From a virus, in IMG/VR virus record IMGVR_UViG_3300017770_000025, positions 1 through 48,427 of that record: a stretch of 48,427 bases of DNA. One strand, 5' to 3'. The notes beneath the pieces were generated by a model. That model had not been told where the DNA came from, did not search any database, and was given only the letters and a program-made list of their open reading frames with translations. The position numbers and the translations under genes are program-made. Of this stretch, positions 13,145 to 48,212 are shown piece after piece; position 1 is the first letter of the stretch; every line of letters begins with the position of its first letter.

Positions 13145-16100
13145 ATGGCTTTAGAATTAAGAGATGCTGTATACTCAGGAATAAGTCAACAATTTCCTGC
13201 GATCTATCAAGAAGATGGAGATTTTCTTGTATCATTTGTACAGGCGTATTATGAGCATCTTGACGAGAAGAATGATCGTAACATTCCTAAGTTGCGAGAT
13301 GTTGATACAACATTATCTGCATTTCTAATCTATTATAAGAAGAAGTTTCTTGCTGATCTACCTATTGACACCAAGCTTGATACACGATTCATTATTAAAC
13401 ATATTCAAGATATGTACCGCAGAAAGGGTACACAAGAAAGTCTTGAGTTATTATTCCGTATGTTCTTTGATGAAGACATCGAAGTATTCTATCCAAGCAC
13501 AGCGATTCTACGCCCGTCTGATTCGATCTGGGGTGGTGATGTATTCCTTGAGGGTAACCCTGTCTATACTGTTGACGAATATCCTATTGAGAAAGGACAA
13601 AGAATAAAAGGTGATGTATCTCTTGCTACAGCGTTTGTTGACGAAGTAATCTTTGTAAACTTTTCGGGTGCATTGATTCCTATCGTCTACCTATCAAATC
13701 TTGCAGGAACATTTAGTGCAGATGACGGAATACAGATTATCACACAAGCAGATGACGGTACTATAACAGTTAAGAATGTGGGTCGTCTTATCGCAGGATC
13801 AATTGATTCGATTAGTGTGAATACTACAAATTCACTTAGATTACCTGATCAAGCAGTTGGTGATAAGGTAAAACTTCAATCATCAAAGGCTGGTATTGAA
13901 GCAGAGGGAAGAGTCACAAAGATTAGTGATACAGCTACAGGCGTTATTGATTTCTCGATTGTAGATGGCGGATTTGGATATGTTGATCCTACGACAACAA
14001 CACTTACAGTCAAGAATGATATTGGTATTAGTAACCAAGTGATGGTAATTAACAACACGACAGCTTTAGACATACAGCGTGGTGATGTAATCATTGCAAA
14101 TGGTGAACAATTAAGCTATCAAGGTTCTGCTACAGGAACACCTTATGCACTTACTGGTTCTGCAAAAGTAATTGAATATAATCACCCCCTTTTATTCCTA
14201 TACAGTGATGATTATAATACAGTCAAAACATATTTGAATCGAACAGCAGTAAATTCAATTAGTGCGACTACTGTAAATGCATTCACTGAAAGTATGAAGA
14301 GTGCGGCTCAAGCACAATACTGGGAAGCACTAGATCAAATTGCACCTCAAATACTAACAAGCGAGTTCACAAACGAGCATAGAAAGCTACAATTACCCAA
14401 TCAGCAATTTTCAGCCCCTCAAGCTACAGGTTCTGGTAAAATTCCAGCTGATAATCTAGGACACTTTCTTGCTGGAGATGCTGACACCTTTACAGCCAGT
14501 AGTACGACTGTTTCTACAATAGGTGTTAACTCTAGACAAGTTATGCAAGAGTATATTAACGTACTTAATCTGTCAGGAAACTTTCCAGCATTTGCCGCGG
14601 ATCTTTATCAACGAGCAGATGTGCCTGATAGTACAAGATCCCAATGGAGATTTTTCTTCAATAGTATATTTCTAGCATTAAGTAAAGTAGATATATTTCC
14701 TCAAATAGTTGTCAGTTCTACAAAGACAACAGGACCAGGTCCGCAAACTCATATTGTTAGTGGTCAATACTATATGATATGGGATAACGGTAGTGGAACT
14801 GGTAACTGGACAACTTACGGAGCATCTACATCTGGAGGAATAGAGGGTGAGATATTCCAAGCAAACCAAAGCTTTGATTTCACAACTACTTCGAACACAG
14901 ACGATTGGGCAGTAGTTGCTCAAGGTAGTTTATCAACACAAGAACTTCAAAACTTTCACTTGAATAGACTTAGATTTGATCAACTCCATATAGACAGCTC
15001 CAGTTCTTTGGCTAGACTGCGAGACAAATCTGGTACTGTTGTTTCTTATCCTACAATCACAACTCCATCTTTCAATCTTCAAAGATATAGAGGCAATCTG
15101 GCTAGATATGATTCAACTGTAACAGATGCCGCTTCATTGGAAAAGTTAGTATACATAGGTACAATTGCTAATCAAAGTTTTAGTGCAACGAATCGTAGTG
15201 CTGACTTCGAAATATCTAGCCTGAGTAATATTGAAACTGTAACGCTTATTCCAGATTTGATTGAAGACTTTGCTGATACACTATTAGACATACCTATTGG
15301 ACAAGCTGGCGGTGCCGCAGGTACTGCAAATGACGACTATGGTATGTCCGGACCTGGAAACGAAAACCTAGGCACTGCACTCAATACTGCGTTTAGTCCA
15401 ATCACAGTCAAGATAGGAACAATAACTGAACTGAATGTTCTGAATGGTGGTATTGATTATCAAAACGATGTAGCTATTGCTATTGAAAACACGCAGATAT
15501 CTAAGTTTAATAAACAAGATTACAAGTTGCAGTTTGATACAATTGACTTTGATATTTCTGCAGGAGATACCATAACACAAAACATCAAGATTGCTGACTT
15601 ACAGATAAATCAATCAGGAAACAAAATACACACAGATCCTGATGGTGATGGTTCGATCATTCTCCAATCTTTAGGCAGTGTAACAACAGGTACTAACTAT
15701 GAGAATAGTTCGACCACTTTTCAGTTTACTACAGGCGATACAAAAGATTACACAGTAAAAGCGAAGTTCTTGAGAAGAGAAGGTAACGACTTCTTCTTTA
15801 GACCTATAAGCTTTTATGGATTTGAAGGCAACATAAGTTTATCTTTCTTAAAGCCTAATCAAGAATATCAGATTGTTTCTTTGGGTGACACTTCACCCTC
15901 TAACTGGAATGCGATAGGTGCTTCTGTTAGTCCTCAAGTTGGAGAGATATTCACAACAGGAACACAAACAGCTATCAGCGGAGCGACACTTAATAAGGGT
16001 ACAGTCACAGTTCCAGTTACTGTTGGTGGCATCAAAAAGAGACTTGTTAGTATTAATGAAGATCCAACTTCATTGCCTATGGGTGCAAACGCAGAGATTT

Positions 16101-17866
16101 CAGGAGACGCTTCTTATCAGTCTGGTCAAATCTCTGAACTTGCAGTTATTAAAACAGGATACAGATATGTAGATCGTGAAGTTGTAGATGTTATTAACAA
16201 CGAGCCTACATCGTCTAGATATAATCAGAAGATTGCGGAAGCAACGGTTCGTGCTTTAGGTCAAGGTAAGACTGGTGGTAAATGGAGTACTAAAACATCT
16301 TTCTTGAGTGAGTCTTCTAAAAATTTGCACGATAATGATTTCTATCAAGAATATTCCTATGAAGTTTCTTCTATCGTAACTCCAAGTAAATATGAACCTT
16401 TAATTAAAGAAACTGTCGGTGTTGCAGGAACAAAACTTTTTAGTAAGCCTCTTGTAAATAGTGATAACACTTTAAATAGTGATTTGAATCTAGAGATATC
16501 TACATTTAATATTCAAGGTGTACAACTTGCTACTACAGCAAAAATTGGAATACATACTCCTAATCTAATTAGCGGCACATCATACACGATAACGGATACA
16601 GGAACAACTACTCCTGTACAATGGCAGAATGTAGGTGCTTCTGTTTCAAATGAAACGGTTCAAGGTGCAGTTAACCTAGTAAACGGAGAGTATTACACTG
16701 TCATAGATATAGCGGGTGCTGCCTGGGATGATGTACAGTATATGTCTTCTGAAATAAGACAAGATTGGTTCTTATTCTGGACCAGAATGATTGGTTCAGC
16801 GACTGTACTTGTTCCGGATTTCGATGGCAACGGATCAGTTACCTCTAGTGATTCGCTTACAGCGTTGAGAATGATTGCCGGTTTAGAACCAATGGATTCG
16901 ACATTTGAATCAAACTTAAATTCTATAACTACAGGATATATTATTTCCAATGCGTTTCCTAGTATAGTAACATATGATAAGCTTGATGCCCCAGACATAA
17001 TCAATCAAGTTAAGTTTACAAAACTTGAAGTCACAGTCGGTTCAACATTTACTGCAAACGGTAATGCTGGAGCAGGAACAGGTAAAGTATCTTATAAGAA
17101 ATCGTTAATTGTCTCACCTGGTTATACAGGTGACACATATAGTCCACAGGCTATCAGACCCTCTAGTAACACATACACTCTTACTGCAGGAGGTAGTACC
17201 ACTGATAGCATTATCTCGAATTATCCAGTTGTTGATAAGTTCTATGTAGTACACTCTATGGAAAACCTTGAAGACATGGACAACACAGCTACTGCAAATA
17301 TATCTATGAATATAGGCACCAATCCTGCTGGTACTAATAGAGTGACTGCTAGTGCGATATGGTCTAACATAATAGACGGTTCTGAAACTCAAGCCTCTAG
17401 CGGACTTCCTGCAACTTGGCCAAGACTGGGAACTATATTTAAAGCTGATGCTCCTAGTAATATTACGAGTAATGGAGCAAGAGTGGGAAATTGCCAAATC
17501 GCAGAAATTACAGACTCATTAACTATCTTTGGTGCTAGTGATATCTCAGGAAGCACAGTTACAAAAACTGGTCATGGTCTAGTAAACGATACGATTGTTT
17601 TATATAATCAATATCTAGGAACGAATTCTGGTAATCTTGAGGGCAACACAACAGCGAATAGAGCCGCTGACTATGAATACTACTATGTTGTAAATGTTAC
17701 AACGGATACATTCCAGTTATCTAAGACACCAATAGGAATAATACAAGCTTCTCCAGGAGATACTCCCATAGATTTAAGCACAATAGCTGGATCTAATCAT
17801 CTGCTTGTGAGACAAACGGGAATAAATGCAGACGATGCAATTTTGATAGGAATACAGGAGCAATAG
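13145..17866 (+). CDS. Giant baseplate wedge protein at gp7 position, with inserted modules
   Basis: A 1573-residue protein following gp6, where T4 has gp7 (1032 residues). The first 125 residues are helical and conserved-looking: AVYSGISQQFPAIYQEDGDF, then RFIIKHIQDMYRRKGTQESL, LLFRMFFDEDIEVFYPS. The rest is mainly beta, with GG-GY elements (DGGFGYVDPTT, near 13967-13995) typical of marine phage structural proteins. It holds several copies of a 'Y-I---G---W---GA----G--F-A' module (about 14758-14866, 15857-15980, 16570-16660, 16684-16750), a second 'TGHG' module (about 17540-17735) and a dockerin-like calcium loop (residues 1225-1236, DFDGNGSVTSSD). The homology to gp7 is inferred from position only; it could be a marine-specific wedge or fibre-anchoring protein. 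Confidence 0.7.
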   Translation: MALELRDAVYSGISQQFPAIYQEDGDFLVSFVQAYYEHLDEKNDRNIPKLRDVDTTLSAFLIYYKKKFLADLPIDTKLDTRFIIKHIQDMYRRKGTQESLELLFRMFFDEDIEVFYPSTAILRPSDSIWGGDVFLEGNPVYTVDEYPIEKGQRIKGDVSLATAFVDEVIFVNFSGALIPIVYLSNLAGTFSADDGIQIITQADDGTITVKNVGRLIAGSIDSISVNTTNSLRLPDQAVGDKVKLQSSKAGIEAEGRVTKISDTATGVIDFSIVDGGFGYVDPTTTTLTVKNDIGISNQVMVINNTTALDIQRGDVIIANGEQLSYQGSATGTPYALTGSAKVIEYNHPLLFLYSDDYNTVKTYLNRTAVNSISATTVNAFTESMKSAAQAQYWEALDQIAPQILTSEFTNEHRKLQLPNQQFSAPQATGSGKIPADNLGHFLAGDADTFTASSTTVSTIGVNSRQVMQEYINVLNLSGNFPAFAADLYQRADVPDSTRSQWRFFFNSIFLALSKVDIFPQIVVSSTKTTGPGPQTHIVSGQYYMIWDNGSGTGNWTTYGASTSGGIEGEIFQANQSFDFTTTSNTDDWAVVAQGSLSTQELQNFHLNRLRFDQLHIDSSSSLARLRDKSGTVVSYPTITTPSFNLQRYRGNLARYDSTVTDAASLEKLVYIGTIANQSFSATNRSADFEISSLSNIETVTLIPDLIEDFADTLLDIPIGQAGGAAGTANDDYGMSGPGNENLGTALNTAFSPITVKIGTITELNVLNGGIDYQNDVAIAIENTQISKFNKQDYKLQFDTIDFDISAGDTITQNIKIADLQINQSGNKIHTDPDGDGSIILQSLGSVTTGTNYENSSTTFQFTTGDTKDYTVKAKFLRREGNDFFFRPISFYGFEGNISLSFLKPNQEYQIVSLGDTSPSNWNAIGASVSPQVGEIFTTGTQTAISGATLNKGTVTVPVTVGGIKKRLVSINEDPTSLPMGANAEISGDASYQSGQISELAVIKTGYRYVDREVVDVINNEPTSSRYNQKIAEATVRALGQGKTGGKWSTKTSFLSESSKNLHDNDFYQEYSYEVSSIVTPSKYEPLIKETVGVAGTKLFSKPLVNSDNTLNSDLNLEISTFNIQGVQLATTAKIGIHTPNLISGTSYTITDTGTTTPVQWQNVGASVSNETVQGAVNLVNGEYYTVIDIAGAAWDDVQYMSSEIRQDWFLFWTRMIGSATVLVPDFDGNGSVTSSDSLTALRMIAGLEPMDSTFESNLNSITTGYIISNAFPSIVTYDKLDAPDIINQVKFTKLEVTVGSTFTANGNAGAGTGKVSYKKSLIVSPGYTGDTYSPQAIRPSSNTYTLTAGGSTTDSIISNYPVVDKFYVVHSMENLEDMDNTATANISMNIGTNPAGTNRVTASAIWSNIIDGSETQASSGLPATWPRLGTIFKADAPSNITSNGARVGNCQIAEITDSLTIFGASDISGSTVTKTGHGLVNDTIVLYNQYLGTNSGNLEGNTTANRAADYEYYYVVNVTTDTFQLSKTPIGIIQASPGDTPIDLSTIAGSNHLLVRQTGINADDAILIGIQEQ

Positions 17867-17869
17867 AGA

Positions 17870-18745: not shown

Positions 18746-18762
18746 CTACAACGGAAAGAATA

Positions 18763-20781
18763 ATGGCAAAGATTATCACAGAAAATTTTAAAGTTGAAAC
18801 AACGAATGAGTTGTTTAACTCCTTCAAGAATCAGAACGATGCCCTAAGTGCAAGTTTTGAGACAGAGTTGACGGCTCTAAACAGTAGCACATTTTCGAAT
18901 GCTCTGAACTCAGGAAACATTGTTGAGATTAAAACTCTTGTTGAAAATCAACTTGAAAAACTTAGACCAGAAGCTGAGTATTATATTTTCGCTTCTAGAT
19001 CAATATCTAGCATTGATGGTGTACCTGTTATACGAAATACTCAGAAAGATAAGAGAGATTTTGAGAGAAAGGTTGTATTTGGAAATAAGGTAGACAACAA
19101 TAGTGCTAGATATATGTTCTATGAAAATTCTTGGACACCAAACACAGTTTATGATGCCTTTGATGATACTAAAGATATATCAATTTCAAATAGTGTTGTT
19201 ACTGTTAGAGGTGCAGACGATGACTACATTGTGTTTAAGTGTATAGAAAATAATAACAACTCGCCTTCAACAACTAGTCCTCAATCTGTTATAGCACAAT
19301 TAGCATCTTCTGGATATCAATCAGTTGAAACGAGTGATAAGTACATATGGCATTATATGTTTACTGTTGTTGCATCTGAAGCTAACATATACAAAACATC
19401 TAACAGTTTGCCTCTACCTACAAATGGTGGTGATGCAAATGTTATAGCGAATGCTAAAGAGTGTATATCTCAAATAATTATCGAACAAACTCCAGCAAAT
19501 CATTTTAATCAGTTTGTATTCGATACGGGTATCAATAGTTCTAGAGTGACAGTACAGACACAAGCTAACTTGGGACAAGGCAGAAGAAGCGTAACTCTAG
19601 GTGTTCAAAATAATACAGTGTTGTCTAATATAAACGAATTCTATAAAGATATGTACCTAAGAGCATCTGCTGGTGCAAATGCTGGAAAACTTTTTGACAT
19701 TATTAATACAACTTCAAACTCTGGAACTTCAGAGATTATAGTAACAGTAGAATCTGTAGATGACTTACCTGTACAATGTGAACTAGTTCCTAAAGTTATT
19801 ATTACTAGTCCAGAACTTGGCGGAACTAGAGCGAGAGCATATGGTATTATAAACAGATTCGGAACGCTAGAAAGAGTTGCCTATGAAACTAAAGGAACAA
19901 ACTACAAGTTTGCTACTGCGATGATAATGAATCCTAGAGGATTGACAGACACTAGTACTACAAATCTTCGTGTTGTCGTTTCTCCTACTGGTGGACACGG
20001 CTCTAATCCTATTAATGAACTGAGTATGAGTAGAATCGCAATCGTTACAAACTTTGTTGGCGAATCTACGACAATTCCTAAGAGTAATTTTTATACACAA
20101 GTAGGACTAGTTAAGAATCCTAAGTTCAGTAAAATTACTGGCTCAGGTCCATATAGTACAAGCAAAATTTCACCAGACTCTTTTGATAATAGAACATTTG
20201 CTACAGTTTCAGGAAATCAAACATCAATAGCAGTTGCAGGACATTATGTTCAGCAGTTTGTAGAAACTGTTGATGTCGTTGATAAAGAATCTGGTAGAAA
20301 ATATGTCATCACCGAACTTGGAAATCTAAGTGTTGCTGAATGGGAATCTATGATGGGTGTAACTGCGGCAGATAAGGTTGACGGTCAGATAGTTATTGGT
20401 CTTACATTTACTGCAAACTCAGCAACAGTGGATTCTTCTAAGACTGGTAAAATATCAAGTGCCGTAGATGGACTAGATCCAGATAAAGACATTGAAGTTG
20501 TTAAGGGCATTATTCACGAAAGCACATATACATCAACAACAAAAATTGCCATCGCACATGATACTGGTGATCATAGAAACAATTTCTTACCAGGAAAAAT
20601 AGAGATTAAAACTACTGAACTGGCACAAAGTGGTAATACATTAACTATAAATACTTTCAACGATATTGAATATGGAGCATATGTTTCATATAGTGGAGAA
20701 CTTCTACACTTTATAGATTTTTCTCCCATAGAAAGAAAGTCAACTACAAAAGAAAAGATTAAATTCTTATTTGATTTTTAA
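18763..20781 (+). CDS. 8: Baseplate wedge protein gp8-like, enlarged
   Basis: A 672-residue protein, about twice T4 gp8 (334). The first 250 residues show the gp8 pattern of marine T4-like phages: FERKVVFGNKVDNNSARYMF, ENSWTPNTVYDAFDDTKDIS, then DDDYIVFKCIENNNNSPSTT (about 151-170), with SDKYIWHYMFTVVASEANIY (about 191-210) and a Ser/Thr/Pro element. gp8 forms dimers in each wedge and contacts gp6, gp7 and gp10. Past about residue 500 the protein carries one copy of the dispersed 'Y-I-ELGN----W---' module (about 20290-20460). That half is probably a marine addition, while the N-terminal half is the conserved gp8 fold. GGAAAG lies about 8 bases upstream of the ATG. Confidence 0.75.
   Translation: MAKIITENFKVETTNELFNSFKNQNDALSASFETELTALNSSTFSNALNSGNIVEIKTLVENQLEKLRPEAEYYIFASRSISSIDGVPVIRNTQKDKRDFERKVVFGNKVDNNSARYMFYENSWTPNTVYDAFDDTKDISISNSVVTVRGADDDYIVFKCIENNNNSPSTTSPQSVIAQLASSGYQSVETSDKYIWHYMFTVVASEANIYKTSNSLPLPTNGGDANVIANAKECISQIIIEQTPANHFNQFVFDTGINSSRVTVQTQANLGQGRRSVTLGVQNNTVLSNINEFYKDMYLRASAGANAGKLFDIINTTSNSGTSEIIVTVESVDDLPVQCELVPKVIITSPELGGTRARAYGIINRFGTLERVAYETKGTNYKFATAMIMNPRGLTDTSTTNLRVVVSPTGGHGSNPINELSMSRIAIVTNFVGESTTIPKSNFYTQVGLVKNPKFSKITGSGPYSTSKISPDSFDNRTFATVSGNQTSIAVAGHYVQQFVETVDVVDKESGRKYVITELGNLSVAEWESMMGVTAADKVDGQIVIGLTFTANSATVDSSKTGKISSAVDGLDPDKDIEVVKGIIHESTYTSTTKIAIAHDTGDHRNNFLPGKIEIKTTELAQSGNTLTINTFNDIEYGAYVSYSGELLHFIDFSPIERKSTTKEKIKFLFDF
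20646..20653 (+). promoter_or_regulatory. Possible internal late promoter
   Basis: A perfect TATAAATA inside the 3' part of the gp8-like gene, 144 bases upstream of the next ATG (20798). It is in an AT-rich coding region (codons for Thr-Ile-Asn-Thr), so chance is a serious alternative. It could boost expression of the 1848-residue gene. Confidence 0.3.
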
Positions 20782-20797
20782 GGAAAGAGAATAACTC

Positions 20798-23700: not shown

Positions 23701-26344
23701 TTCTGGATATGATGTAATCAAAAATCCAGAAATTAATATTGAACTTGATATTGCTGGTCCTATGTTAGACTTAGTTGATACAATTCAAGAAATTATGCCT
23801 TTGACTAGCGAAGAACTTGTATCAGAAAAAAGAGTAGGCACAACTAGACCTAGACGAAGAGTTATCATGGGTCAGTTTGAGCAGACTCTCGAACAGACTA
23901 GCTTGACAAGTTCTACAAGCGATATTAATCAGGCAATAGGCAACTTTGTTACAGATGTAAACATGAAGCCTTACTTGAGAAGAAAAACTATTAAAGTTCT
24001 CATCACAGGTTTGAGACCTAGTACTCGTCACTACTTCTTCTTTGATCAGAAGTCTGTTGATGCTCATGTTGCTCCTGGACCAGTCATACAATTTGGGTTA
24101 AGTAACAGTTCAACTTTAGATGTTTCAAAAGTATCGACTGCTGGATGGCATTCAAGTCGAGCGGGATTTGGTAAAGGGTCTCCAATACGAAGTGATGCAA
24201 ACGGAACATTATCTGCGGTATTTGTTATACCTGGCGAAACTTTCTTTGTTGGACAGAATGTTCTTGAGATTGTTGATGTTGATCAATACTCAAGTATAGA
24301 CTCAGCTTCTACTTCATATGCTAGAGCAACTTATAGAGGCTATAACTTCGCAGTCAATAAGAGCGATGTGAGCATGACTACACGGACTGTAGACTTCGAT
24401 ACTAAAGTTAATATTGTGAAACGAGAGATCCAGAGACAAGTTGGTGATCCTATTGCACAAACTTTCAAAGTAAAAGCTTCTAGTACCAATGATGCTAACA
24501 TTGCTTTAATCAGCGACATCGATGTATACTTCAAGCAGAAGAGTTCCACTACAGGCGTTACATTACAGATTCGAGAGGTTGAGAACGGATATCCTTCTAA
24601 GATAGTATTGCCTTTCGCTAGTAAGCATCTAAATTCAAGCGAAGTATATACATCAACAAAAGGCACACTCGCAACTAAGTTTACTTTTGATAATCCTGTT
24701 AGACTTCAATCAGACAAAGAATATTCGTTTGTAGTTATTCCTGATGCGAACTCTCCAGATTATCTAATCTATACATCTAAGGTTGGCGAAACTAGTCTAT
24801 CAAAAGGCACTGCTGAATCTTCAGTTGCAGTTACTAATGATTGGGGTGATGGCGTATTGTTCACTTCTACAAATGATAGTGCATGGAAGTCTTATCAAGA
24901 CGAAGACATTAAGTTCAATATAAACAGATATGACTTCTCGACTTCATCGGCTTCAGTTAACTTAGCTCCTAATGATCTAGAGTTTTTAGACATTCGTGAT
25001 ACTACACTTAATTTTGAAGTTGATGAGATTGCTTATGTTAAGAAAACCGATGTGTTTACAGCAAGCGTTTCAGGTTCTGAACTTAACATAATTACAATTC
25101 AAGGTTCACCAGGAATTGCTTTAGGTGATTACTTACACATTGCGAACAATGCAGGAACAGAGTTTATTGTTGCTGAAGTAATCAATGTGGATACCCAAGC
25201 GGCGACTAAAGTATTTACGCTAGACTCTTCATACTTTGAAACTACGACTAGTGCGACAGTTACATTGTGTGTTGCTGGTAGAGTAAGCCACTTTAATCCT
25301 AGAAAACCAGATAAATTATTCTTGAGAGAAAGTAGTGCATCATCTATCAATTTCTTGGATGATAATCCTACAGTTCAGATTGGCTCTCTACAAGCTGGTA
25401 CAGTATATACAATTGTAGATTTGGGTTCTCCAACTACGACTACAACACATTGGGAAAGTGCAGGTGTTCCTTCTGGTAAAGCGGCTATAGGATATCAGTT
25501 TACGGCTTCCAATGCGGGTACTACTGGACCAGGTACTGCTAGACCCAATGATCAGTTAATTCAAGGTGCTGATAGTGGAGCAACTGCTAAGATATCTGCT
25601 GTAACAAACGAGAAGATTAGTTACTTCCAGTCACAAGTTTATATTAGTGATTCAATTAACACATCTACTTCGCTATCTCTGTTGAAGCAGAATGGAGTGG
25701 TTGACAAGAGCATTGATAAAAATTCTAATGTGTATACTCCTAATAACTTGAGAACGATTATGAGTAAGAGTTACATGGTTAGTAATTCTATTGCAGAAAA
25801 CTTCAAGATTAAAGTCGATCTTTCAAATAATGGATTTACATCAGCATCTCCAATCATTGATTCTAAAATATCTGAGTTGTTTGCTTATCAATATCACATT
25901 ACAAACGATAACACCAGTTCAACATGGGTGACGAAAGAAGTTATTCTAGAGGAAGACTTAGATGCAGTAGGAATGAGAGTTCTATTGTCTGCATATAGAC
26001 CAGCAGGTACATTCATTGATGTTTACGGAAGATTTGTTTATCCTGAAAATGTTGAAGAGCAAGGGCCCTGGCTACAACTTAGAAACGATAGTTCTGATCT
26101 GTACTCTAACACTAGTAACACAAAAGATTACCGAGATTTTGAATATAACTTTGATGAAGAACTTACTGCTTCACCTTATGATGTGCATACAACATATAAA
26201 ACTTTCCAGTTAAAGTTTGTATTGCGACACGGAACAACAGGTAGTACTACGGATGAATTAGGAACTCCTGATTTGAGTGGAATAACTCCTGATATCAACT
26301 TGTTCCCACACATCTTTGATTACAGAGCGATAGCATTGACATGA
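20798..26344 (+). CDS. Giant DUF4815-type structural protein
   Basis: An 1848-residue protein. Its start, MGINTDLNVDPYYDDFDEAK, then FNRVLFKPAKAVQARELTQL and QTILQKQVERFGSN (residues about 22-55), is the block I recognise as the DUF4815 family of phage structural proteins, found in marine T4-like genomes among baseplate genes. Later parts contain long beta-rich stretches, an ExDIKFNINRYDF motif (about 1370) and one copy of the dispersed 'Y-I-DLG----W---G' module (about 25394-25546), inserted between a hydrophobic segment and an NDQLIQGADSGATA element (about 25549-25590). Position (after gp8) corresponds to T4 gp9/gp10, which attach fibres, so a fibre-anchoring role is inferred. It overlaps the next ORF by four bases (ATGA, 26341-26344). 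Confidence 0.8.
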   Translation: MGINTDLNVDPYYDDFDEAKQFNRVLFKPAKAVQARELTQLQTILQKQVERFGSNVYKEGTIISGINLTARDDLFYVKLNDKAGFSNPAIYDQVVADDGTATTFVARGLTSGLEAEIIKGQNGFQTQDPDLKTFFVKYLNTSQDNQTDVKRFLQGEAIEVLDSNSNVVETVTVATVAGHEGRSFGISCEEGVIYQKGHFIFVDNQFIIVSKYSNVPGNVSVGFTIKENLIDSDSDTTLLDNASGFNNENAPGADRLQLVPTLVSHNTVSEPTEFFALIRYVNGKPVRIRDKTEFNIVGNELARRTYEESGNYVTDGLRVTLENENDTAFAVVSPGKAYVYGKEVTNVSPTKLPITPVSLTQSKAGQRTGTSYGQYYKYSSNDNSKLHDFLLTGGASARYTLYNNTTVVGHCSVANIVHSATGTNDLGKIYVYAVVKLSAYVSTAPNKIGLTGDAAGAVPLIKKVGSTESAATGTQAAHLYDSNKGAMIFDAGKSSMNSMQNINVTRRVKLTSVGSNTVTLNTNDGFPLNTDIVAITASNQIETISSATYDGSGNVSVTAAGAVDSLYYNRVDTLEEDSLVLETGYVKNVFASGKGLIGVPNCVELISVQDQFGREINNAVDVTSKFRLVNNQKDGFYDRSYIELRAGETLSNNDLLIRFKYITRNSPVGGGFLTVDSYSHSSFTDNLNLVQNYTAKDAREYNLLNSYDFRPYAQKLVTPSATTNAPLVTAPGAGAASLIIDPRAIIPAVNSTISSDQTYFMSRVDSVVLDEYSNVKLVKGGESENPSVPRTEGLYAIANVRIPGNTSKITGEEKITVRDISTKTYKMEDIGRIEQRIDSLVDLVSLSLLEQQSNSMLITDASGATRFKNGILADSFKDLNLAEISDSQFKATLDKGRTIVSPSVNQFPLDLKAESGTGVQLSFPDVVTIASTGTNIEVISQPYATTFRNCVSNFYSYQGKAVIDPPFDSGYDVIKNPEINIELDIAGPMLDLVDTIQEIMPLTSEELVSEKRVGTTRPRRRVIMGQFEQTLEQTSLTSSTSDINQAIGNFVTDVNMKPYLRRKTIKVLITGLRPSTRHYFFFDQKSVDAHVAPGPVIQFGLSNSSTLDVSKVSTAGWHSSRAGFGKGSPIRSDANGTLSAVFVIPGETFFVGQNVLEIVDVDQYSSIDSASTSYARATYRGYNFAVNKSDVSMTTRTVDFDTKVNIVKREIQRQVGDPIAQTFKVKASSTNDANIALISDIDVYFKQKSSTTGVTLQIREVENGYPSKIVLPFASKHLNSSEVYTSTKGTLATKFTFDNPVRLQSDKEYSFVVIPDANSPDYLIYTSKVGETSLSKGTAESSVAVTNDWGDGVLFTSTNDSAWKSYQDEDIKFNINRYDFSTSSASVNLAPNDLEFLDIRDTTLNFEVDEIAYVKKTDVFTASVSGSELNIITIQGSPGIALGDYLHIANNAGTEFIVAEVINVDTQAATKVFTLDSSYFETTTSATVTLCVAGRVSHFNPRKPDKLFLRESSASSINFLDDNPTVQIGSLQAGTVYTIVDLGSPTTTTTHWESAGVPSGKAAIGYQFTASNAGTTGPGTARPNDQLIQGADSGATAKISAVTNEKISYFQSQVYISDSINTSTSLSLLKQNGVVDKSIDKNSNVYTPNNLRTIMSKSYMVSNSIAENFKIKVDLSNNGFTSASPIIDSKISELFAYQYHITNDNTSSTWVTKEVILEEDLDAVGMRVLLSAYRPAGTFIDVYGRFVYPENVEEQGPWLQLRNDSSDLYSNTSNTKDYRDFEYNFDEELTASPYDVHTTYKTFQLKFVLRHGTTGSTTDELGTPDLSGITPDINLFPHIFDYRAIALT

Positions 26345-27902: not shown

Positions 27903-27927
27903 TAATTAAAAGGTAAAGGATAAAAAA

Positions 27928-30900
27928 ATGCCAGACACAACTAAAAAGATATCAGAACTAGCATCGATTACAGCCGCAGGTATAAACTCGGCTGATATTC
28001 TTGTTGTTACTGATGTATCTGAGTCTACATCTTCAAAAATAACATTTGAGAATGTTACGAATGCTATTCTTTCAGATGCGAATATTGAGGCAAAAGCTCC
28101 TACCTTTGTAACGAAGCTAAACGCTATAAACTCTTCTACACCCAGTCTAAGCAATGGTCTGAATGCTGGCGGTCTTTACTATAATGAGCAATACAGAGAC
28201 GGTGCATACTTCTTAAATTGGGCTAATATTACCAGTAAACCTTCTATTCCTGCTGATATAAACGATCTTACTAATGCAGGCAATTTCGTATCATATGATA
28301 CAACACTGACGAAGATGCGTGTTAAGGGTACAGGCACAAACCTTGCTACTGATTTAACAATGACTTCAGATTATATGGATGAGGGCATAACGAATTTATT
28401 CTACAGAGATGATCGTGTACAGACTAAAATAGATTCTATCTTTGGTGGATTATTTAATCAGTATAGCGACACTTTTGATGGTGGTCAGGTAATTGATAGT
28501 CTTGTAGATGTACCTGCTACTTTTCAAGCCGTTAACGCATTTCAATCTAGTGTTGTAAGAATATCAGATCCTACTTTAGCCAGTTACTTTTCTGTAGGTC
28601 AATCATTGAGACTTTATGGTGCTTCAGACACAGCAGATGTAATACAAGGAACTCCTAGTCCTACTATAAGTGTTCAAGGTCAAGCTGGATTTAGTGAAGG
28701 AACAAGTTCTAATCACAGAGTCATGGCATACAAGTTCTGCTATTTTGATCTAAAAGATGGAAGAATAGGACCACTGTCTGCCGTTGCACTTACTAAAAAT
28801 GTCCAGTATACTGCTGACGGTGGAACGACATACACAGATCCTTTACCTAGATTTAACACAGATAACTTTGTTAAGTTTACTGGCTTGTCAGCTGGTGCTG
28901 ATCAAGGTATTCTTGCGTACAGATCAATTGATAGCGGCACATTCAAACTCTTAGCAGTTTTAGGACCTAAAAACTTTGATGGTGGTGCTTGGCAAGACTA
29001 TCACTTATTTGATTATACTCCTTGGGGTGGAAAAAATTCTTCTGACAACACTTACTCTAGTATTACACATTTTCCTTTAACTGAACACTCAGCATCCCAA
29101 AGAGGATGGATGGATGCTTCAATTAAATCTATTGATGTTAGATCAAGTTACTTCGACATCACATTAGGCGACAATAGCACAAATACTACAACATCAGTAT
29201 ATTGTAATCCTTCTCCTAGTGCTGTAGCTGTTGCACACAACGACACTTCTAAAATTAATGAAGCGATACAATCAAGATCAGCTTCTGGAAACAAAAGCGT
29301 TCAGTTGAACGGTAAAACATACATGGCATCACATCTAATTATACCAGATAACTTTGGTATAGTCGGAACTGCAAACATCACTAAGATTAAAAAGTTGCCT
29401 TGGTCAGGATATAACGGAGATAATGCTGACGGCTCTTTGGTAAAAACTCAAACAATTACTAATGCAACTACTCTTTCTTTATATGGTCTTGATCTCGATG
29501 GAAATATTACGAATCAATATATTGTAAATGACAGTGCTGATAAGTCACTAAACTTCTTGGTAGATTTTGGTACTGCACCTATTGATGTTCTTATAGACAG
29601 ATGTAGAGTTCAGAATGTAGTTGCTGGTGGCATATACGCAGATTCGCCTACCAACATGAGAATTACAACAAGTGAAATTAAGAATAGTGGTGTGAGTGAT
29701 GTTCATCCATTCAGTCCTCTTTATGCGACTGGAGGATCAAACACCCTAATAACATCTAATAGATTCTTGAACTTCGCTGATTCAGTAGATGTATCTGTCA
29801 CATCGGAAGCTATGGTTGCAAGTAACATTGTTAAGGCTTGTGGATCAGGTTTGCTTGTCGCAGGTTCTACCTTTATGGTTTCATCGCCAAATGTTCTTAT
29901 TGGTGCGGCAAACGAGTTCTTATCTAGCCCAGACATATTGAATACTGAATACGATTCTATAAACATACCTCTTAATAAGTTTGTTAGTGCAGGCGACTAT
30001 CTTAGTGATTCATATGTCTATCAAGAGAATGGTGCGGCATTCGATCTATCACAAACTTCTATAGCAAGTGAAAATGGAACAATTGTTTATAGACTGAACT
30101 TAATTCAGCAGTTAAGCAACGGCTCTACTTTGCCTTATGCTGTTGATGCAGGTACACATACTAGCGACTTGCAACACGGACCTGCTATATCGTTCTTAGC
30201 GGCTAATGTCGATACAGGTAACAATCATATTACAATTACTGGTCATGAGATTCCTAATGGATCTAGAGTGCTTCTTGCAGGCGTATCTCTGAATGCGTTA
30301 GGTGCTAACACAGATGGACAATATTTTGCTAAAGTAACGGGTGATAATATTGAGTTATTTGATAGTTACACTGCTCCTAGCACATTCACTACTCAGCAAG
30401 GATTAAGCACTAATGCTAATGGTTCATTAAAAATTGTTCCTGCTCCTAGTATTCCTTTCATTAACGGCAAGCGTTACAAGATTAAAGCTGTGGGTACAGT
30501 GAACTGGACAGCAATAGGTGCTAAAGTTGGAATGGTAGACGAATACTTTATCTATAACGGTACTGCTGTTACTGGTGCTAACGGTGTCGCAAGTGCAGAA
30601 GACTTCGCAGGACTTAACAATCAGCTTCCTCCAGTGATTACGGACATGACTAAAACACCGACAGAAAGACAAGCAGGTGAGTTTCAGTTTAATGTTCTTT
30701 CTGCTGATAAGAATTTACTTTATACAGGTGCATTCTCTCCTTCACAGTTGCAACAAAGATACGATGCAAGAGTTGCCGAAGGCACTACTGGATATCCAGC
30801 AGGATCTAAGCATTTGGGTGTTGCTTGGTCAGCAAGCTACAGATACTTTGCTTCAGTTGGCACAATCAATAGTGGATTGTGGTATGTGTATCAAGCGGGT

Positions 30901-31302: not shown

Positions 31303-31311
31303 GGAAAACAA

Positions 31312-35814: not shown

Positions 35815-35817
35815 TTT

Positions 35818-39615: not shown

Positions 39616-42600
39616 TGCCAATTTATAGAGGTCTAAATGTTGCAAAGGCTTTGAGTGATATTGATGATTCAAGACAAGCCTTAAAAAACTTAGGACTAAA
39701 GAGAGAAGATTTTGATTTGATTGCAGGACTAACTAGTTCTGAAGTAGGCGTTGGTATTAGCGATTTCCATAACATGGCAGGCTTAACCAGTGACCAAAAG
39801 AAAGAGTTAGAGTCTTTATCAAGTGCCGCTGATGCTACAGAAATAGCATTTCTAAGAATAAATGATATCAGTACTCCACTAAAATTCAATCTTAGATTAA
39901 ATAATAACAAGCTTGCTGGTGGAGCAATCAAATATAATTACCTAGATTTTTCTGCCACTCCAGTTGGAGGAAATTTTGTTGAAAAATCAGCAGACATTTC
40001 TACTTCTAGATTGTCTTCTTGGTCGCCTGTAGGAGATCCTAATCCAGACGACTACATTCTTTATGGCGGTGATATTAAAATTGTAGGCGATAGACTTTCT
40101 TATACAAAACTTTCTACCACAGAAGCTCCTATTGCTAGAACTTTTAGAGCAGAAGTTGCTACTCATGTAGCTACAGCAAACTTAAACTCGGGCGTAAGCG
40201 GAGACGGACTTCAATCGATGTATCTAATGAAGGGTATACCGTTAGAGTGGGAAGGAGTCTTTGAAGAGATATCTCTAAAGGCTGCCGTAACTCCTATAGC
40301 TGATGCAGAAGGAAATATTCCTATCACATGGAGAATAACAAATCTGCAAGCTCCTGCTGGATCATATAACTCTGGAGATGGCTCGAACAACACAGCAAGT
40401 ATAGGAACAGGAACTTTAGGTAATCCAACAGAATACAAGATAGCTCCTCCTGGATATGCTAAAAGAAAAATTGAGTTCTTCTATGATCCAGCGAAAGTGC
40501 TTAGACTCGAAATGACATCAGCTAACATATCAAAATGGACAAATGTATCTTTGCCCAATCTTAACTGGCTAAATTTAAGTTTTAACGATTTTCCTGTTAT
40601 GCCAGAATTTAGATCAGACGGTACAGCCGCTAAACAAGGCTTTGATGGTGGTGCTGGTCTTGCTCCTACGTTAGATAGATTGTATATAACAGCAAATGAT
40701 TTAGGAAGAGGAAACGATGCTCTGTTAGGCGAAGGAGATCGTGAGAACACAGGTAACTCATCACAACAATTGAATAGATTGCCTCTTACTTTAAGATATT
40801 TGATTGCTAATGGTTGCTTTACTGATAATGTCGATATCGATTTGACTGACTATGAAAATCTGATTTATCTAGACCTTTCTTCAAACTTTACAAGAGAGTT
40901 AAGAAGACCACAGACGGCAACAAATAGTCCTGCAACATATAATCCTAAAAAGAGAGTTTTCTTTTCAGTCGAGACTGACACATCGTGGGCGTCATCGGCA
41001 GCATCTAATCAAATGTTTATTGCGGGACATGGCTTTACCACTAATGGTACTCCAGTAAGATACGACTATCATGCTGATAGTTCAGGAACTATGGCTGAAC
41101 CCATAAGTTCATTGTCTGCTAACACGACATATTATGTTCGTGTAATCAATAACAATGTTATAGAATTGTATAATGCTGAAGGAAATGCAACAAGTACAGG
41201 CAGTACTACTGGTAGACGATCTATGAGTGGCGAAGGTGGAGATGGACACGGTAAGCTACACTCTTTGATTCAGTGGGACACATCTACCAATAAAGCTTAC
41301 ATGGCCAGCACAACGAAAGGTATAGATCAGTATAGAATTTATAATCAGGGTTATAGTAGACTAACTCCTGGTGTGTATAATAGTAAGAAGTTACATTTGT
41401 TCTATGCGAATACTAATGATGACTTGGCAACAAATTCAGAGACGCCTCACTATGCATCTACTGCTAGTATAGATGGAACAGTAACCGCGGCTCAAGCTAA
41501 AGCTAAGTCTTCAGCAGATATGGCAATTCCTAAAATCGAAGCAGATACAAACTTTAGATATTGGTATAGTGCGTATAATCCTCACAATATAGTAGATTTT
41601 AGCGGTAACACAAGTATCTATCGTTATTATCAATATCGAGGTGATATTGATACGAGATATGAAGAAGCTGAAACTACATTAGACGGAAAGTTCACAGGAT
41701 GTACAAGTCTTACACACATTCATGTTTATAATTGTTACGGCACATCTGGCAACTTTGAAACAAGCAATTTGTTCCAGAATTTGCCTAATCTGAACTATGT
41801 AAACACTCTTGTCTGGGGTAGAGGTGGATTGAAGGGAAGAATCACAGATAATATGTTTAACGGATCACCTAAAGTGGGAGACTTCACTGTAGGTGGCGAT
41901 CAGATGAATCAGTTTACGAATGACACTTTCGGAACTAGTGGCGTTGGCAGTGTTAATACAGGTAAAGCACTATATAATGCCAACCCTAATATGAGACACT
42001 TCAGAGTGGGGAACAATAGATACGGATCTGGAACTCTTGTGCAAGAAGAGGCAGGAACACACGACTTCATTTGGCCAACAAATGACAAAATGAGAACTCT
42101 ATACTTCTATGCTAATAATCTTAGAGGAACATTCCCAAATGTATTCAACAGTTTTAAATTCTTATCTTATCTACAACTAGGATACAATGCTCCTTGGATG
42201 AGAGTTAGAATGGCTCAAAGTAAACAAATATATAAAATTGCATACAACCATTTGAGTAATTCTGGCGTTGACGGTAGCGGTCATGGCGGCAGCAATAAAG
42301 ATCGATTGACTACGCATGACTACAAAGCAATAGGCTGGCAAGTACAAAGTGAAGCTGACAATATTGCGGCTGTGGGAAGCGTTTTCGGAGCAGAAGTTGC
42401 AGGAAATCCCTCTACAAATCACGCATTCAAGTTACAGCACATACCTGTGGCCACTGGCAATCCAAACAACTATATTAGAAATAGATATTATAGAATTATG
42501 AAACTTGGTAATACAGATTGGAATGCTTTGACTGAAGGCGGTAATAGTAGTCCGTATCTTGGACAGAAGATAGAGTTCAAGGCTTCAAAAGTAGGCAGTA

Positions 42601-43175
42601 TATCATCGAGCGATGCTGGTACTGATCCAGGCGAAATGATGCCATACTCTACTTACGCATCTTTAAGGTCTTTGGGATTAACGGGTACATTCCCAACATT
42701 TAATCAGACGATGACAAATTTAGGGGGCTTATTTATCTACCAGAACAACTTTACTGGTCAGTGTCCTAAGATAGATGCGCCAAAACTAACAAGATTCTAT
42801 GCGAATACTAATAAGTTCATTGGCTCTATACCAGATTTCTCAAATTGTGAAAAGCTTAAACAAATTAGATTGCATGATAATAAGTTAAGTACATTTACCG
42901 CAGGGTTCTTAACAGGTGCCGTAAGGTTAGAATCACTAGATTTAAGAAACAATGTATTAGAAGCAAGTTGTCTGAGAGAACTTTTAATTGATCTGATTGA
43001 AAATTACACGAACAGAGAAAGAAGCGGAGTGACAGTAAACTTAAAAGGACAGAGTGGAGCAAACAGACTGCAAGAAAGTTCTAAGTTTGACGGAACTAGT
43101 GGGGAAAGTTCTACTGCCGCAAAACTAGACTTTTTAAGACAAGTAGCAGGCTGGTCTATACTTCTAGACTCATAA
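39615..43175 (+). CDS. Leucine-rich-repeat adhesin-like virion protein
   Basis: An 1186-residue protein with an N-terminal anchor-like start (LNVAKALSDIDDSRQALKNL), then LRR-like segments at about residues 294-332 (LEMTSANISKW, LNWLNLSFNDFP), 390-430 (LIYLDLSSNF), 690-860 and a clear C-terminal block (about 1010-1130): LGGLFIYQNNFTGQCPKI, LTRFYANTNKFIGSIPDFS and LKQIRLHDNKLSTF, then LESLDLRNNVLE. The 'L--L-l--N-f-G-iP' form resembles plant-type LRRs, usually protein- or glycan-binding. Copies of both dispersed modules are also present (NQMFIAGHGFTTNG, about 41009-41190; RNRYYRIMKLGNTDW, about 42477-42630). The LRRs suggest host-surface recognition. The gene is coupled to paralogue B by TAATG. 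Confidence 0.75.
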   Translation: MPIYRGLNVAKALSDIDDSRQALKNLGLKREDFDLIAGLTSSEVGVGISDFHNMAGLTSDQKKELESLSSAADATEIAFLRINDISTPLKFNLRLNNNKLAGGAIKYNYLDFSATPVGGNFVEKSADISTSRLSSWSPVGDPNPDDYILYGGDIKIVGDRLSYTKLSTTEAPIARTFRAEVATHVATANLNSGVSGDGLQSMYLMKGIPLEWEGVFEEISLKAAVTPIADAEGNIPITWRITNLQAPAGSYNSGDGSNNTASIGTGTLGNPTEYKIAPPGYAKRKIEFFYDPAKVLRLEMTSANISKWTNVSLPNLNWLNLSFNDFPVMPEFRSDGTAAKQGFDGGAGLAPTLDRLYITANDLGRGNDALLGEGDRENTGNSSQQLNRLPLTLRYLIANGCFTDNVDIDLTDYENLIYLDLSSNFTRELRRPQTATNSPATYNPKKRVFFSVETDTSWASSAASNQMFIAGHGFTTNGTPVRYDYHADSSGTMAEPISSLSANTTYYVRVINNNVIELYNAEGNATSTGSTTGRRSMSGEGGDGHGKLHSLIQWDTSTNKAYMASTTKGIDQYRIYNQGYSRLTPGVYNSKKLHLFYANTNDDLATNSETPHYASTASIDGTVTAAQAKAKSSADMAIPKIEADTNFRYWYSAYNPHNIVDFSGNTSIYRYYQYRGDIDTRYEEAETTLDGKFTGCTSLTHIHVYNCYGTSGNFETSNLFQNLPNLNYVNTLVWGRGGLKGRITDNMFNGSPKVGDFTVGGDQMNQFTNDTFGTSGVGSVNTGKALYNANPNMRHFRVGNNRYGSGTLVQEEAGTHDFIWPTNDKMRTLYFYANNLRGTFPNVFNSFKFLSYLQLGYNAPWMRVRMAQSKQIYKIAYNHLSNSGVDGSGHGGSNKDRLTTHDYKAIGWQVQSEADNIAAVGSVFGAEVAGNPSTNHAFKLQHIPVATGNPNNYIRNRYYRIMKLGNTDWNALTEGGNSSPYLGQKIEFKASKVGSISSSDAGTDPGEMMPYSTYASLRSLGLTGTFPTFNQTMTNLGGLFIYQNNFTGQCPKIDAPKLTRFYANTNKFIGSIPDFSNCEKLKQIRLHDNKLSTFTAGFLTGAVRLESLDLRNNVLEASCLRELLIDLIENYTNRERSGVTVNLKGQSGANRLQESSKFDGTSGESSTAAKLDFLRQVAGWSILLDS

Positions 43176-43187
43176 CAGGAAAGAGAA

Positions 43188-44351: not shown

Positions 44352-44357
44352 GTTATC

Positions 44358-47300
44358 TTACTTAGGCTCAACGTGCCTACTATTTACTAGAACTCTGTAA
44401 GTCTCTTCAGATCCGCCTGAAGGAGTATAACATATATCGAATCGACCATCGGGCTCTTGTGCTTGAGCCTCTGATTCACTACCTCTATTTGCGGCATCGC
44501 TTGTCTGCTCTGTAAATTCGACATCTTCTAGAGACAGTGCTTCTCCTAGTCTGGTGAATGTTATATCAGGTAGACTACCATTACCAGTTACATTTGACCA
44601 AGATCCACCGCTATAGTGTTCTACTGAGAAGTTTCCAGTACTGCCGTCTACAAAATCTACCTTATATATAATTCCATCAGAGAATGTTGACAATACAGAG
44701 CCTGTATTCGCTCCTTCAGCTTTTATTAAATCTCCCACTTTAACTACGGGTTGCGAAGGAGAAAACCCAAATAAAATATTAGATCCTAGAGTGGCAGTAA
44801 ATTTAAAGTCTGATTTCGTATTGTAGCTTAGTTTTTTGAATGATAATTCTTTAACTTCTAGATTTGGAAAACCATCAGTCGTTAACAATCCTTCAGTGTA
44901 GCTACCAAAAGGTGGAGCAGTGTTCAAAGGAATAACGCAATACTCTCTATTCTTTCTGAGTTCGGTAACTGATCCAGAATAACTACCCGAAGGAACGATT
45001 ACAAGAGTTGCGCCTGGATTAATTGTCTGAGCAAGATTTACTTGAGCACCACTTTCATTTTTCAATCTAATCATTTTCTCGCCACTACCGCCAGTAAACT
45101 TTTGGACTTTAGTAGCAGTTCCGCTAAGACTACTTTGATTATCTTGAGGTATAGCCGGATTAAAATATACTCTATCGTCATCAGCTATTCTTGTGTAATT
45201 AGTATCTGTCAGTTCAATCTCGTCTTGACTATTTGAAGCTTGTGTTTTTACCTCTACTCCAAATACTCCTGTACACTCGTAAACACCCGTTATATCATTC
45301 AAGCCTCTACTCGAATATATTGAAGCAATGCCATGAGTTGCAGATAATGTTGCATGATTGACAAGAGTATTTCTATTCGCAGTTAAACTTGGATGGTTAC
45401 TCACTTGAAGTTTTAATTGAGTTGCGGCTGTAGGTGCAACAGAGGCATCACTGTCATTAAGATATGTAATTTTCTCAACCACATAAGGTCTATCGTTTAC
45501 ACAATGGCCTGTTGCTGATAGGGATATTGCTCCGTAGTAATAAACTAAGTCACCTTCTACTACATCTAATATTGATCTTTTGAGTGTATCGTTTGTTCCG
45601 TTGACGACTCTAATTGTCAACTCTGTGTCAGACACTCGGGATGCTTTATATGTTCCTACTAGTCCTTCATTTTTAAGATGAATAAACTCTTTTACTGCGT
45701 TTAAAGGTATGTTGGCGCCACCAACAGATCCAATATCTGATGATATATAAGCCTTTGTACTATCAATTTTCTCTAAGAGTTGAAACGAAAATACTTTATT
45801 ATTAGCGTTTGTCCAGCCAGCATTCGCACCATCGTAAGCTGTTATGAATGTAAGCACATCTCCTTCTTGGACATTAGTGAATGGCGAATTCGCATTCGCA
45901 GGATCTCTTTGTAAAGTGCCAGCCGTATTTGTCAGCTTAGCCACTCTTATAGGGTTATTGATCTGACCTGCACCACTATCAAAATCGGGAAAAATATCTC
46001 CAGTGGCTTGTTTTGCATCATACAACATCATAGATATAGTATCATTTACAACTAGTTTTGCTGTAGAATCTTGTTTTGTCACTTTAGCATGATTGTTCAC
46101 AAAGTATGGGAAAGTATATCTTCCAAAATCATCACTAGATCCGTCAGTTGTATAGAAATATGAATATGACAGCGGTCCACTGCCACTGCCAGTATCGTGT
46201 CTGAATATTTTACTTTCTAGCAATTGCTCTTGACTATCGTTTGGTTCGTACCACCAAACACTGTAGCGTATCTTTCTTCTTTTACCATTTGCTTGCAAAG
46301 GAGTTATAAAAATCGTACCTGTTCCTAGATCATATTCTGATCTATCGTATTCGAATTCGAGAATATCAGATCCAGTGGCGCCTGCATCCGCATCAGTTTT
46401 AGCGTAGTATCTGTAATCTCCCATTACAGCATCATATTTACGATAGACCTCTGTAACATATAGTTCTATTCCATTTATTTCTACTTCATGATTCTCACAA
46501 ACTCTTCTATAATCATCTTCTTCATGTAACTCAATTAGAGTTACATTATCGACAGTCGAATAACTACACTGCTTTAACGATTGGAATGCAAATGCATTTA
46601 CGCCTTTTAAGAATTTCCAGTTACCGTCATCGTTAACATCTTCTTCTATTGAGAAGAATCCATTTATTAAAAGTTTAAACGAGAAAAATCCACTTTGATA
46701 TCCTTCCCAAACAATACCGCCTTGCGTGTTAGTAAAATCTGGGTGAAGTGTTCCTACTAACTCAAGTTGACCGTCAGACCACAAATCTACACCCGTAACT
46801 AAATCTAGTAAGTTAGCGGTATCATTCTTCTTCGTATAGAACTTGTTTACTGGTAAATCAGTTGAATTAGGATCTAAATTTTCAGCAACAGATGCTCCTT
46901 CGCCACTAGGTAATGTTTGGTTTCTCAGATATACCCTTACAGCTATCGCACCTGAGAATGCTCCAGTAGGAGTATGTGTTACATGGTCTCCTATCGACCA
47001 ATGTTCTAACGCAAAAGCATCTGCAACAGTTGTTTGTGTAGCACCATTGTAGATAAACTGTTGTCCTACATAAGGTATACCCTCTACTCCTATATCTTTC
47101 CACTCTGAAGCATTAGAAGAGACTGTTCCTAGTTTTAGAATTGTGTACATTTTATTCGCAACAAAATTACCCATTGATTTTGCGGGTATTACTTTGTTGT
47201 TACCTGATGCAGTAGCAGTTGCGGTTGGAGTAAATCTAGTACCTATGGGTATAACTAATTGTAATGTACTAGTATCACCAAAATCAGCAGTTAATGTCTT

Positions 47301-48212
47301 TTGTGTTGATAAAGCCGCATCTGTGTATAACTCAATTCTATCAGTATCAGTAGTAACTACTTTTACAAAGAAAATATCACCGTCAGTAAATCCACTACCT
47401 TCGGCGCCACTACCACTTTGATAGACCACTTTGTTGCCAGTTACAAATGAATGTCCAACAATTGTGATATAACCAGTAGCTCCAGCACTTACATTTGCGT
47501 TAACAAATGATTCAGTAGAAGTGCTTAGTGTTGAATTAACTGCTGACCAGTCGTAAGTTCCGTCTGCCTCTACTATAACACAAGGAGTGCCGCTAGTTAT
47601 AGATGTCGTTTCTAGAGTTGTATTAGCTACAGGAGATTGATCTCTGAGACTTCCCGTGGTGTTACCGTATAGTGAGTTACAAGTTATTTGTAAGTTATCA
47701 AAATTCATGTCCGAAGCACCAGCAATAACTCTGTATGTGTTGCCTTGACGACTTTGAGTTGCGTTTATTTCGGCTTCTGGATAGTTTACTGTATTCTGAT
47801 TAAGTCTATCTTCTGATATGATAGAAGCACTAGGACCTGAGCCTCCGTTTATCCAAGGCGGATCACCCAATGCTACTTTGAAATTGTTTATATGATCTTG
47901 AATTGTTACTCTAGGCTCGACATCTACTGATGTGGTATCGCTTCCCACTAGAGTGCCTTCTATAGTAGTTCCAGCAAGTTGAGTAAATTCTTGAGCGTTT
48001 CCGCTTACAGTTAGTCTGTCACCTAAAGGACCGTCAGCTATCCCCACCAATGGTAAAATATCATCAGATGTGAATCTTAAAGCATTTCCGTTTGCATCTA
48101 CTTGTGTAGATATATTATCCAATATATTGTCTAGTGCGTTCTTGGGATCAGGTATATCTGATAAGTTTTTATCTGCTCTGGCACCAAATTTTATATACTT
48201 TGTTCTTGACAT
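44358..48212 (-). CDS. Leftward giant fibre/adhesin protein
   Basis: A 1284-residue protein on the - strand, the only leftward gene in the right half. It starts MSRTKYIKFGARADKNLSDI followed by PDPKNALDNILDNIS, the N-terminal anchor motif I know from marine T4-like fibre proteins. Further on it carries both dispersed modules: ITIVGHSFVTGNKVVYQSG (about 47290-47480, + coordinates) and MYTILKLGTVSSNASEW (about 47010-47163), and an ISS-like SGTPCVIVEADGTYDWSAVN that may be a third copy. The rest is a succession of small beta domains (NIPLNAVKEFIHLKNEG, AYISSDIGSVGG). It has its own late promoter box in the palindrome at 48244-48259, 33 bases from the ATG. It ends six bases from the opposing gene. 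Tail fibre is the likely role. Confidence 0.75.
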   Translation of the reverse strand: MSRTKYIKFGARADKNLSDIPDPKNALDNILDNISTQVDANGNALRFTSDDILPLVGIADGPLGDRLTVSGNAQEFTQLAGTTIEGTLVGSDTTSVDVEPRVTIQDHINNFKVALGDPPWINGGSGPSASIISEDRLNQNTVNYPEAEINATQSRQGNTYRVIAGASDMNFDNLQITCNSLYGNTTGSLRDQSPVANTTLETTSITSGTPCVIVEADGTYDWSAVNSTLSTSTESFVNANVSAGATGYITIVGHSFVTGNKVVYQSGSGAEGSGFTDGDIFFVKVVTTDTDRIELYTDAALSTQKTLTADFGDTSTLQLVIPIGTRFTPTATATASGNNKVIPAKSMGNFVANKMYTILKLGTVSSNASEWKDIGVEGIPYVGQQFIYNGATQTTVADAFALEHWSIGDHVTHTPTGAFSGAIAVRVYLRNQTLPSGEGASVAENLDPNSTDLPVNKFYTKKNDTANLLDLVTGVDLWSDGQLELVGTLHPDFTNTQGGIVWEGYQSGFFSFKLLINGFFSIEEDVNDDGNWKFLKGVNAFAFQSLKQCSYSTVDNVTLIELHEEDDYRRVCENHEVEINGIELYVTEVYRKYDAVMGDYRYYAKTDADAGATGSDILEFEYDRSEYDLGTGTIFITPLQANGKRRKIRYSVWWYEPNDSQEQLLESKIFRHDTGSGSGPLSYSYFYTTDGSSDDFGRYTFPYFVNNHAKVTKQDSTAKLVVNDTISMMLYDAKQATGDIFPDFDSGAGQINNPIRVAKLTNTAGTLQRDPANANSPFTNVQEGDVLTFITAYDGANAGWTNANNKVFSFQLLEKIDSTKAYISSDIGSVGGANIPLNAVKEFIHLKNEGLVGTYKASRVSDTELTIRVVNGTNDTLKRSILDVVEGDLVYYYGAISLSATGHCVNDRPYVVEKITYLNDSDASVAPTAATQLKLQVSNHPSLTANRNTLVNHATLSATHGIASIYSSRGLNDITGVYECTGVFGVEVKTQASNSQDEIELTDTNYTRIADDDRVYFNPAIPQDNQSSLSGTATKVQKFTGGSGEKMIRLKNESGAQVNLAQTINPGATLVIVPSGSYSGSVTELRKNREYCVIPLNTAPPFGSYTEGLLTTDGFPNLEVKELSFKKLSYNTKSDFKFTATLGSNILFGFSPSQPVVKVGDLIKAEGANTGSVLSTFSDGIIYKVDFVDGSTGNFSVEHYSGGSWSNVTGNGSLPDITFTRLGEALSLEDVEFTEQTSDAANRGSESEAQAQEPDGRFDICYTPSGGSEETYRVLVNSRHVEPK

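Follow-up and report, generated by a model that had tools for sequence, protein, structure and literature searches.

The structural genes of this virus raise the question of why one short protein segment recurs in proteins that are otherwise unrelated. The window, i.e. the whole stretch of DNA analysed (48 kb), is an entire IMG/VR record, which looks like a fragment of a marine-type virus infecting bacteria. Its baseplate region is of the T4-like myovirus type, the nearest cultured relatives of the baseplate genes being phages of the Sinorhizobium phiM12 and Caulobacter Cr30 type. Structural genes are ordered as gp6-position gene, gp7-like, gp8-like, DUF4815, beta-helix spike, two large structural proteins, LRR protein and leftward fibre. 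The gp7-like protein matched the baseplate wedge family phrog_17744 (2e-97); the gp8-like protein matched phrog_438 (3e-37) and, by its predicted structure, T4 gp8 (PDB 1n7z, Foldseek probability 0.99); the DUF4815 family match was 6e-49.

The first-pass annotation had listed similar segments in six structural genes, and all of them were found in long open reading frames (ORFs) at the places named. They represent a module of about 45 residues with the consensus AGSFVVGTTYTIVSLGTTDWTAIGASSNTVGTxFTATGAGTGTGTA. In an alignment of the seven full segments of the window Y, I, G, W and G were invariant; conserved columns were Y7, I9, G13, F/W17, G21, G28, F31 and A33, together with the GTGT end. Judged from the sequence, these columns probably correspond to a hydrophobic core and turns rather than to a polar site. 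The two halves of the consensus, FVVGTTYTIVSLG and NTVGTTFTATGAG, look alike, which suggests an internal duplication.

Aligning the segments and searching with a profile, as had been proposed, bore out their relationship. The copies aligned, and leave-one-out HMMs recovered seven out of seven full copies in their own ORF among the 23 ORFs of the window (best domain E 1e-8 to 2e-3). Circularity was guarded against with an external HMM, built from 169 copies outside the phage group of the window (unrelated phages and bacteria); it also found every window copy (3e-9 to 3e-4, the gp8 copy being weakest at 0.015) and matched little else. Chance or low complexity as the origin of the module was rejected, the reversed-sequence control yielding no domain below 0.01 in 6,354 reversed ORFs against 408 in the forward ones; the reversed matches did not even fall below E 1. 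The copies, and the sequences lying within the interrupted ones, were as follows:

14750..14917, plus strand: copy gp7a, residues 536-591 of the gp7-like wedge protein (leave-one-out E 2e-3; external 3e-4)
15845..16012, plus strand: copy gp7b, residues 901-956, an exact ortholog indel (leave-one-out E 2e-9; external 3e-9)
16562..16663, plus strand: N-half of copy gp7c, residues 1140-1173 (HMM E ~1e-6; external 3e-6)
16667..16735, plus strand: possible half copy AVNLVNGEYYTVIDIAGAAWDDV inside gp7c, tentative, seen by eye (HMM E 4.6)
16817..16891, plus strand: tentative dockerin/EF-hand-like stretch DFDGNGSVTSSDSLTALRMIAGLEP inside gp7c, seen by eye
17030..17089, plus strand: C-half of gp7c, kept in orthologs (external HMM positions 29-45, E 0.004)
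20281..20460, plus strand: copy in the gp8-like wedge protein, residues 507-566 (leave-one-out E 1e-5; external 0.015)
25385..25546, plus strand: copy in the DUF4815 protein, residues 1530-1583 (HMM E 1e-3; external 2e-7)
30457..30597, plus strand: copy in the beta-helix spike, residues 844-890 (HMM E 7e-4; external 8e-9)
42471..42632, plus strand: copy in the LRR protein, residues 953-1006 (HMM E 1.5e-4; external 1.6e-4)
47013..47168, minus strand: copy fibre-2, residues 349-400 (HMM E 1e-8; external 1e-5)
47190..47255, minus strand: C-half of copy fibre-1 (VIPIGTRFTPT...), by alignment to relatives L234-L236
47256..47519, minus strand: insertion of ~88 residues in the fibre-1 loop, absent in L234-L236 and carrying a second dispersed module
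47520..47603, minus strand: N-half of fibre-1, aligned to L234-L236, whose whole copy matches the HMM at 1e-9 to 2e-7

No credible match to the module was obtained among Pfam-A, NCBIfam and PHROG models or PDB chains (sequence and fold); Pfam matches to YjbE and Glucokinase were read as chance matches of low complexity and discarded. A literature search on the letters of the motif retrieved no relevant description. Single copies or the consensus gave at most two weak tblastn matches in the phage collection; the probable cause is the masking of low-complexity sequence, by which the GTGTGTA end is lost.

Structure prediction, likewise suggested at first reading, returned the same order of elements in the two models made. 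The gp7b copy alone (AlphaFold2, 97 rows; pLDDT 87.4, pTM 0.74) was predicted as a strand, a helix and two strands. In the model of whole gp8 (pLDDT 78) strand-helix-strand-strand appeared again at residues 505-568 (local pLDDT 84-92), the copy being placed between predicted strands 495-504 and 577-589. Both models displayed three strands of at least three residues and one helix within ~45 residues. The gp7b model matched ten phage proteins of BFVD, nearly all uncharacterised (probability 0.69-1.0, TM 0.55-0.74), and no PDB entry, Foldseek being weak for a chain of 61 residues.

It had further been claimed that the hosts are otherwise unrelated and that the module moves between genes; masked-host families, clean indels and alternative sites in relatives agreed with this. 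Clean in-frame presence and absence among orthologs was found for copies in gp7, gp8 and DUF4815. Module-free gp7 orthologs join residue 897 directly to 955 at the place of gp7b, and relatives L107 and L092 lack gp7b and carry a copy at gp7 residue 346, where the window has none. The gp7a site is also occupied in relatives, in a degraded form in L087 and L089. Where the window has the gp8 copy, orthologs without the module show an exact gap (501|576), and relatives show one (1521|1586) in place of the DUF4815 copy; in L211 the DUF4815 copy lies elsewhere, at 1731-1778. The gp8 and DUF4815 copies are held by the same phage group, a clade of 22 rows, and the label of module presence required two changes on the gp8 tree against 19.9 in shuffles. 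These two copies would reflect an old event followed by vertical descent in the clade, and movement of the module would therefore be episodic. Many further presence/absence pairs were encountered in unrelated phages. At one site of a tail protein L013 has a single module and L017 and L043 have two in tandem, and copy number would thus also change by tandem duplication.

The family extends far beyond the window. With the consensus of the seven diverged window copies as query, pattern searches of viral contigs gathered at least 138 relatives; bacterial contigs were scanned with a DNA pattern for G--TDFT-IGA, and an HMM then removed pattern matches that lacked the remainder of the domain. Iterating the profile over the fetched loci yielded some 400 domains, distributed over roughly 300 ORFs; these counts refer to loci, some of which overlap, and not to independent viruses. 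When the module was masked, 285 module-bearing ORFs fell into 40 unrelated host-protein families. All named PHROG matches listed for the hosts were tail, tail fibre, baseplate wedge, host specificity or virion structural proteins. This bias towards tail proteins is partly one of ascertainment, because no phage genes are larger than those of the tail and the query retrieved mainly tail loci. The module was also present in spirochaete, planctomycete and verrucomicrobial proteins from bacterial contigs, some of which may be prophage or phage. In a Limnohabitans isolate it lies in a very long protein with PATR, YDG and MBG_2 repeats, which are typical of secreted adhesins. Few cultured phages carry it: cyanophage S-TIM54 has a single copy, as does podovirus ctXG6705, and HTVC008M, phiM12, Cr30 and Syn9 have none. 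Most relatives of the window displayed 6-11 copies per record of 40-67 kb, these records being partial, and L052 (record G013) held about 20 full or half copies, all within a single open frame of 7757 residues.

The reading that we favour, with a probability of roughly 0.6, is that all these copies are one undescribed, independently folding mini-domain, carried in frame in loops of tail and baseplate proteins, spread by recombination and serving an accessory role at the surface. Insertions would keep the reading frame and lie in loops, hairpin tips among them, both in the tail and baseplate proteins of virions and in certain surface proteins of bacteria. The module would have spread over a long period as phage genes recombined in the ordinary way. 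The place of the modelled copy between two gp8 strands suggests exposure at the particle surface. An accessory role there is proposed because most hosts are outward-facing or host-contacting proteins; it might consist in weak adhesion to a cell surface or matrix, or in bulk that tunes loop geometry. Since the conserved positions resemble those of a core and of turns, the sequence does not imply adhesion. Finally, the helix-to-strand loop of the module itself accepts further domains.

The module might instead be a pure structural spacer, a stable cap that binds nothing, allows for or evens out differences in loop length and guards against proteolysis. Such a role accords with conservation confined to core aromatic or aliphatic and glycine columns, with the predicted location of the gp8 copy between two strands and with presence or absence among orthologs, which indicates that the module is dispensable. 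A spacer, however, need not retain up to 80 % amino acid identity across unrelated hosts, and the module is kept across the whole gp8/DUF4815 clade and concentrated in receptor-side proteins, so that we consider this role possible though rather unlikely.

Specific carbohydrate binding, which the first-pass annotation had suggested alongside docking, is a doubtful candidate function. An aromatic residue (F, W or Y) is conserved at position 17, the strands are rich in Thr and Gly, and copies occur in spike, LRR, fibre and bacterial surface proteins; yet position 17 may simply belong to the core, the wedge proteins gp7 and gp8 bear copies as well, and no match to a lectin, carbohydrate-binding module or docking domain was found by sequence or by fold (for which Foldseek is weak at 61 residues). 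A putative docking unit, joining the outer proteins of one particle through module-module contacts, would fit the multiple copies per virus record in most relatives, but appears improbable in view of the single copies in S-TIM54 and ctXG6705, the copies in bacterial proteins and the relatives whose gp8 and DUF4815 proteins are otherwise intact without the module.

Dispersed in-frame insertions are also known as DNA elements. Rickettsia palindromic elements are short, in-frame, palindromic coding units found in unrelated genes. PARCEL repeats, similarly, are short in-frame coding units with palindromic DNA, present in unrelated genes of distant taxa (PMC2996958). Copies of the module on one contig reached an amino acid identity of up to 0.8 at a synonymous identity of 0.44, close to the 0.385 that codon usage predicts; L142 was an exception (synonymous identity 0.89). 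Module DNA gave no palindrome, hairpin or RNA-structure signal (mean z -0.31, 60 copies), and its GC content followed that of the host genome (r 0.70). Low synonymous identity, absence of hairpins and host-like GC therefore indicate that the module is kept as a protein and that most copies are old; unlike the elements above, it is not palindromic and is constrained as protein. A selfish in-frame element of these types, whose protein product is incidental, would account for dispersal and nesting and was nevertheless rejected as highly improbable, the synonymous identity, hairpin and GC tests all speaking against it.

Returning to the mini-domain, several copies were themselves interrupted. Inside a copy in L052 a second, complete copy was nested, L065 and L076 being uninterrupted at the same site. 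In the leftward fibre, the segment 47490-47620, which had been given as doubtful, proved real: it is the N-half of fibre-1, whose C-half lies at 47190-47255, and three relatives (L234, L235 and L236) keep the copy whole where the window has the ~88 residues bearing the second module. Two further segments had been proposed in gp7, of which 16570-16660 was substantiated as the N-half of the split copy gp7c, while 16684-16750 was only weak and half-like and was not retained as a copy. In close orthologs the C-half of gp7c follows 120-138 residues after the N-half. Pfam gave no match for the dockerin/EF-hand-like stretch at 16817..16891. The interruption of the L052, fibre-1 and gp7c copies lies, in each case, in the helix-to-strand loop after IGA.

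The second dispersed module, GHGF-TG--V-Y...YYV...(F/I)(Q/E)L, has about 75 residues, and the window carries it in four genes that are unrelated to one another. Its HMM was built from these four copies, so that independent support comes from the matches in relatives; Pfam gave no firm match (PilW_C at 0.0016 for the fibre copy, below the cut-off). The copies were:

17525..17794, plus strand: near the C-terminus of gp7 (four-copy HMM)
30193..30420, plus strand: in the spike (GHGF-TG--V-Y...YYV...IELY), just before the first-module copy (four-copy HMM)
40980..41222, plus strand: in the LRR protein (four-copy HMM and relatives)
47277-47507, minus strand: in the fibre-1 insertion (second-module HMM match)

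One may speculate that the first module acts as plug and socket at once. Hairpin loops would receive it, and the variable loop within it would be a preferred socket for further copies of itself, for the GHGF-type module and for the dockerin-like piece; tail proteins would then be enlarged by the nesting of one domain in another, possibly via dedicated or sequence-favoured recombination. This extension is tentative.

Phage Ig-like domains, which have been proposed as surface adhesion parts, behave in a similar way: these accessory domains are dispersed among tail, baseplate and head proteins that are unrelated to one another, may be present in one ortholog and missing from another, and also occur in bacterial adhesins. 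The module, in contrast, is half their size, has a helix instead of an all-beta sandwich and takes up other domains in a loop of its own. It lacks the seven-strand beta sandwich of 80-100 residues and had no sequence match to the Ig-like Pfam families Big_2, Big_5 and I-set; most likely, it resembles these domains in kind and is not homologous to them. Unrelated phage proteins, mostly receptor-binding and baseplate proteins, were reported to have fragments in common in a survey of domain mosaicism using known ECOD domains (Smug et al. 2023, PMC10684548). The present module, by contrast, matched no PDB chain, and a survey of domains from solved structures would therefore probably miss it.

The copies would thus define an unrecognised domain family common to tail proteins of environmental phages and bacterial surface proteins, and portray tails as assembled from interchangeable plug-in parts. 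They also offer a record of domain-in-domain insertion in which relatives still show the uninterrupted state, and the gain of new phage tail parts thereby becomes open to direct study and testing. A profile of the module would aid annotation of many tail proteins of unknown function.

Two minor observations, both made by eye, concern neighbouring genes. An ORF of 291 residues between gp7 and gp8 (17870-18745) contains GHSKIIGFAFDGYPIYGPYG and resembles a YHYH-type domain. The two adjacent large structural proteins at 31312-39615 (1500 and 1265 residues) have the stretches LLGIPR, SKRFFRYQPGR/SKRAFRYQPGR and KIEFSWYGA in common, which suggests an old gene duplication.
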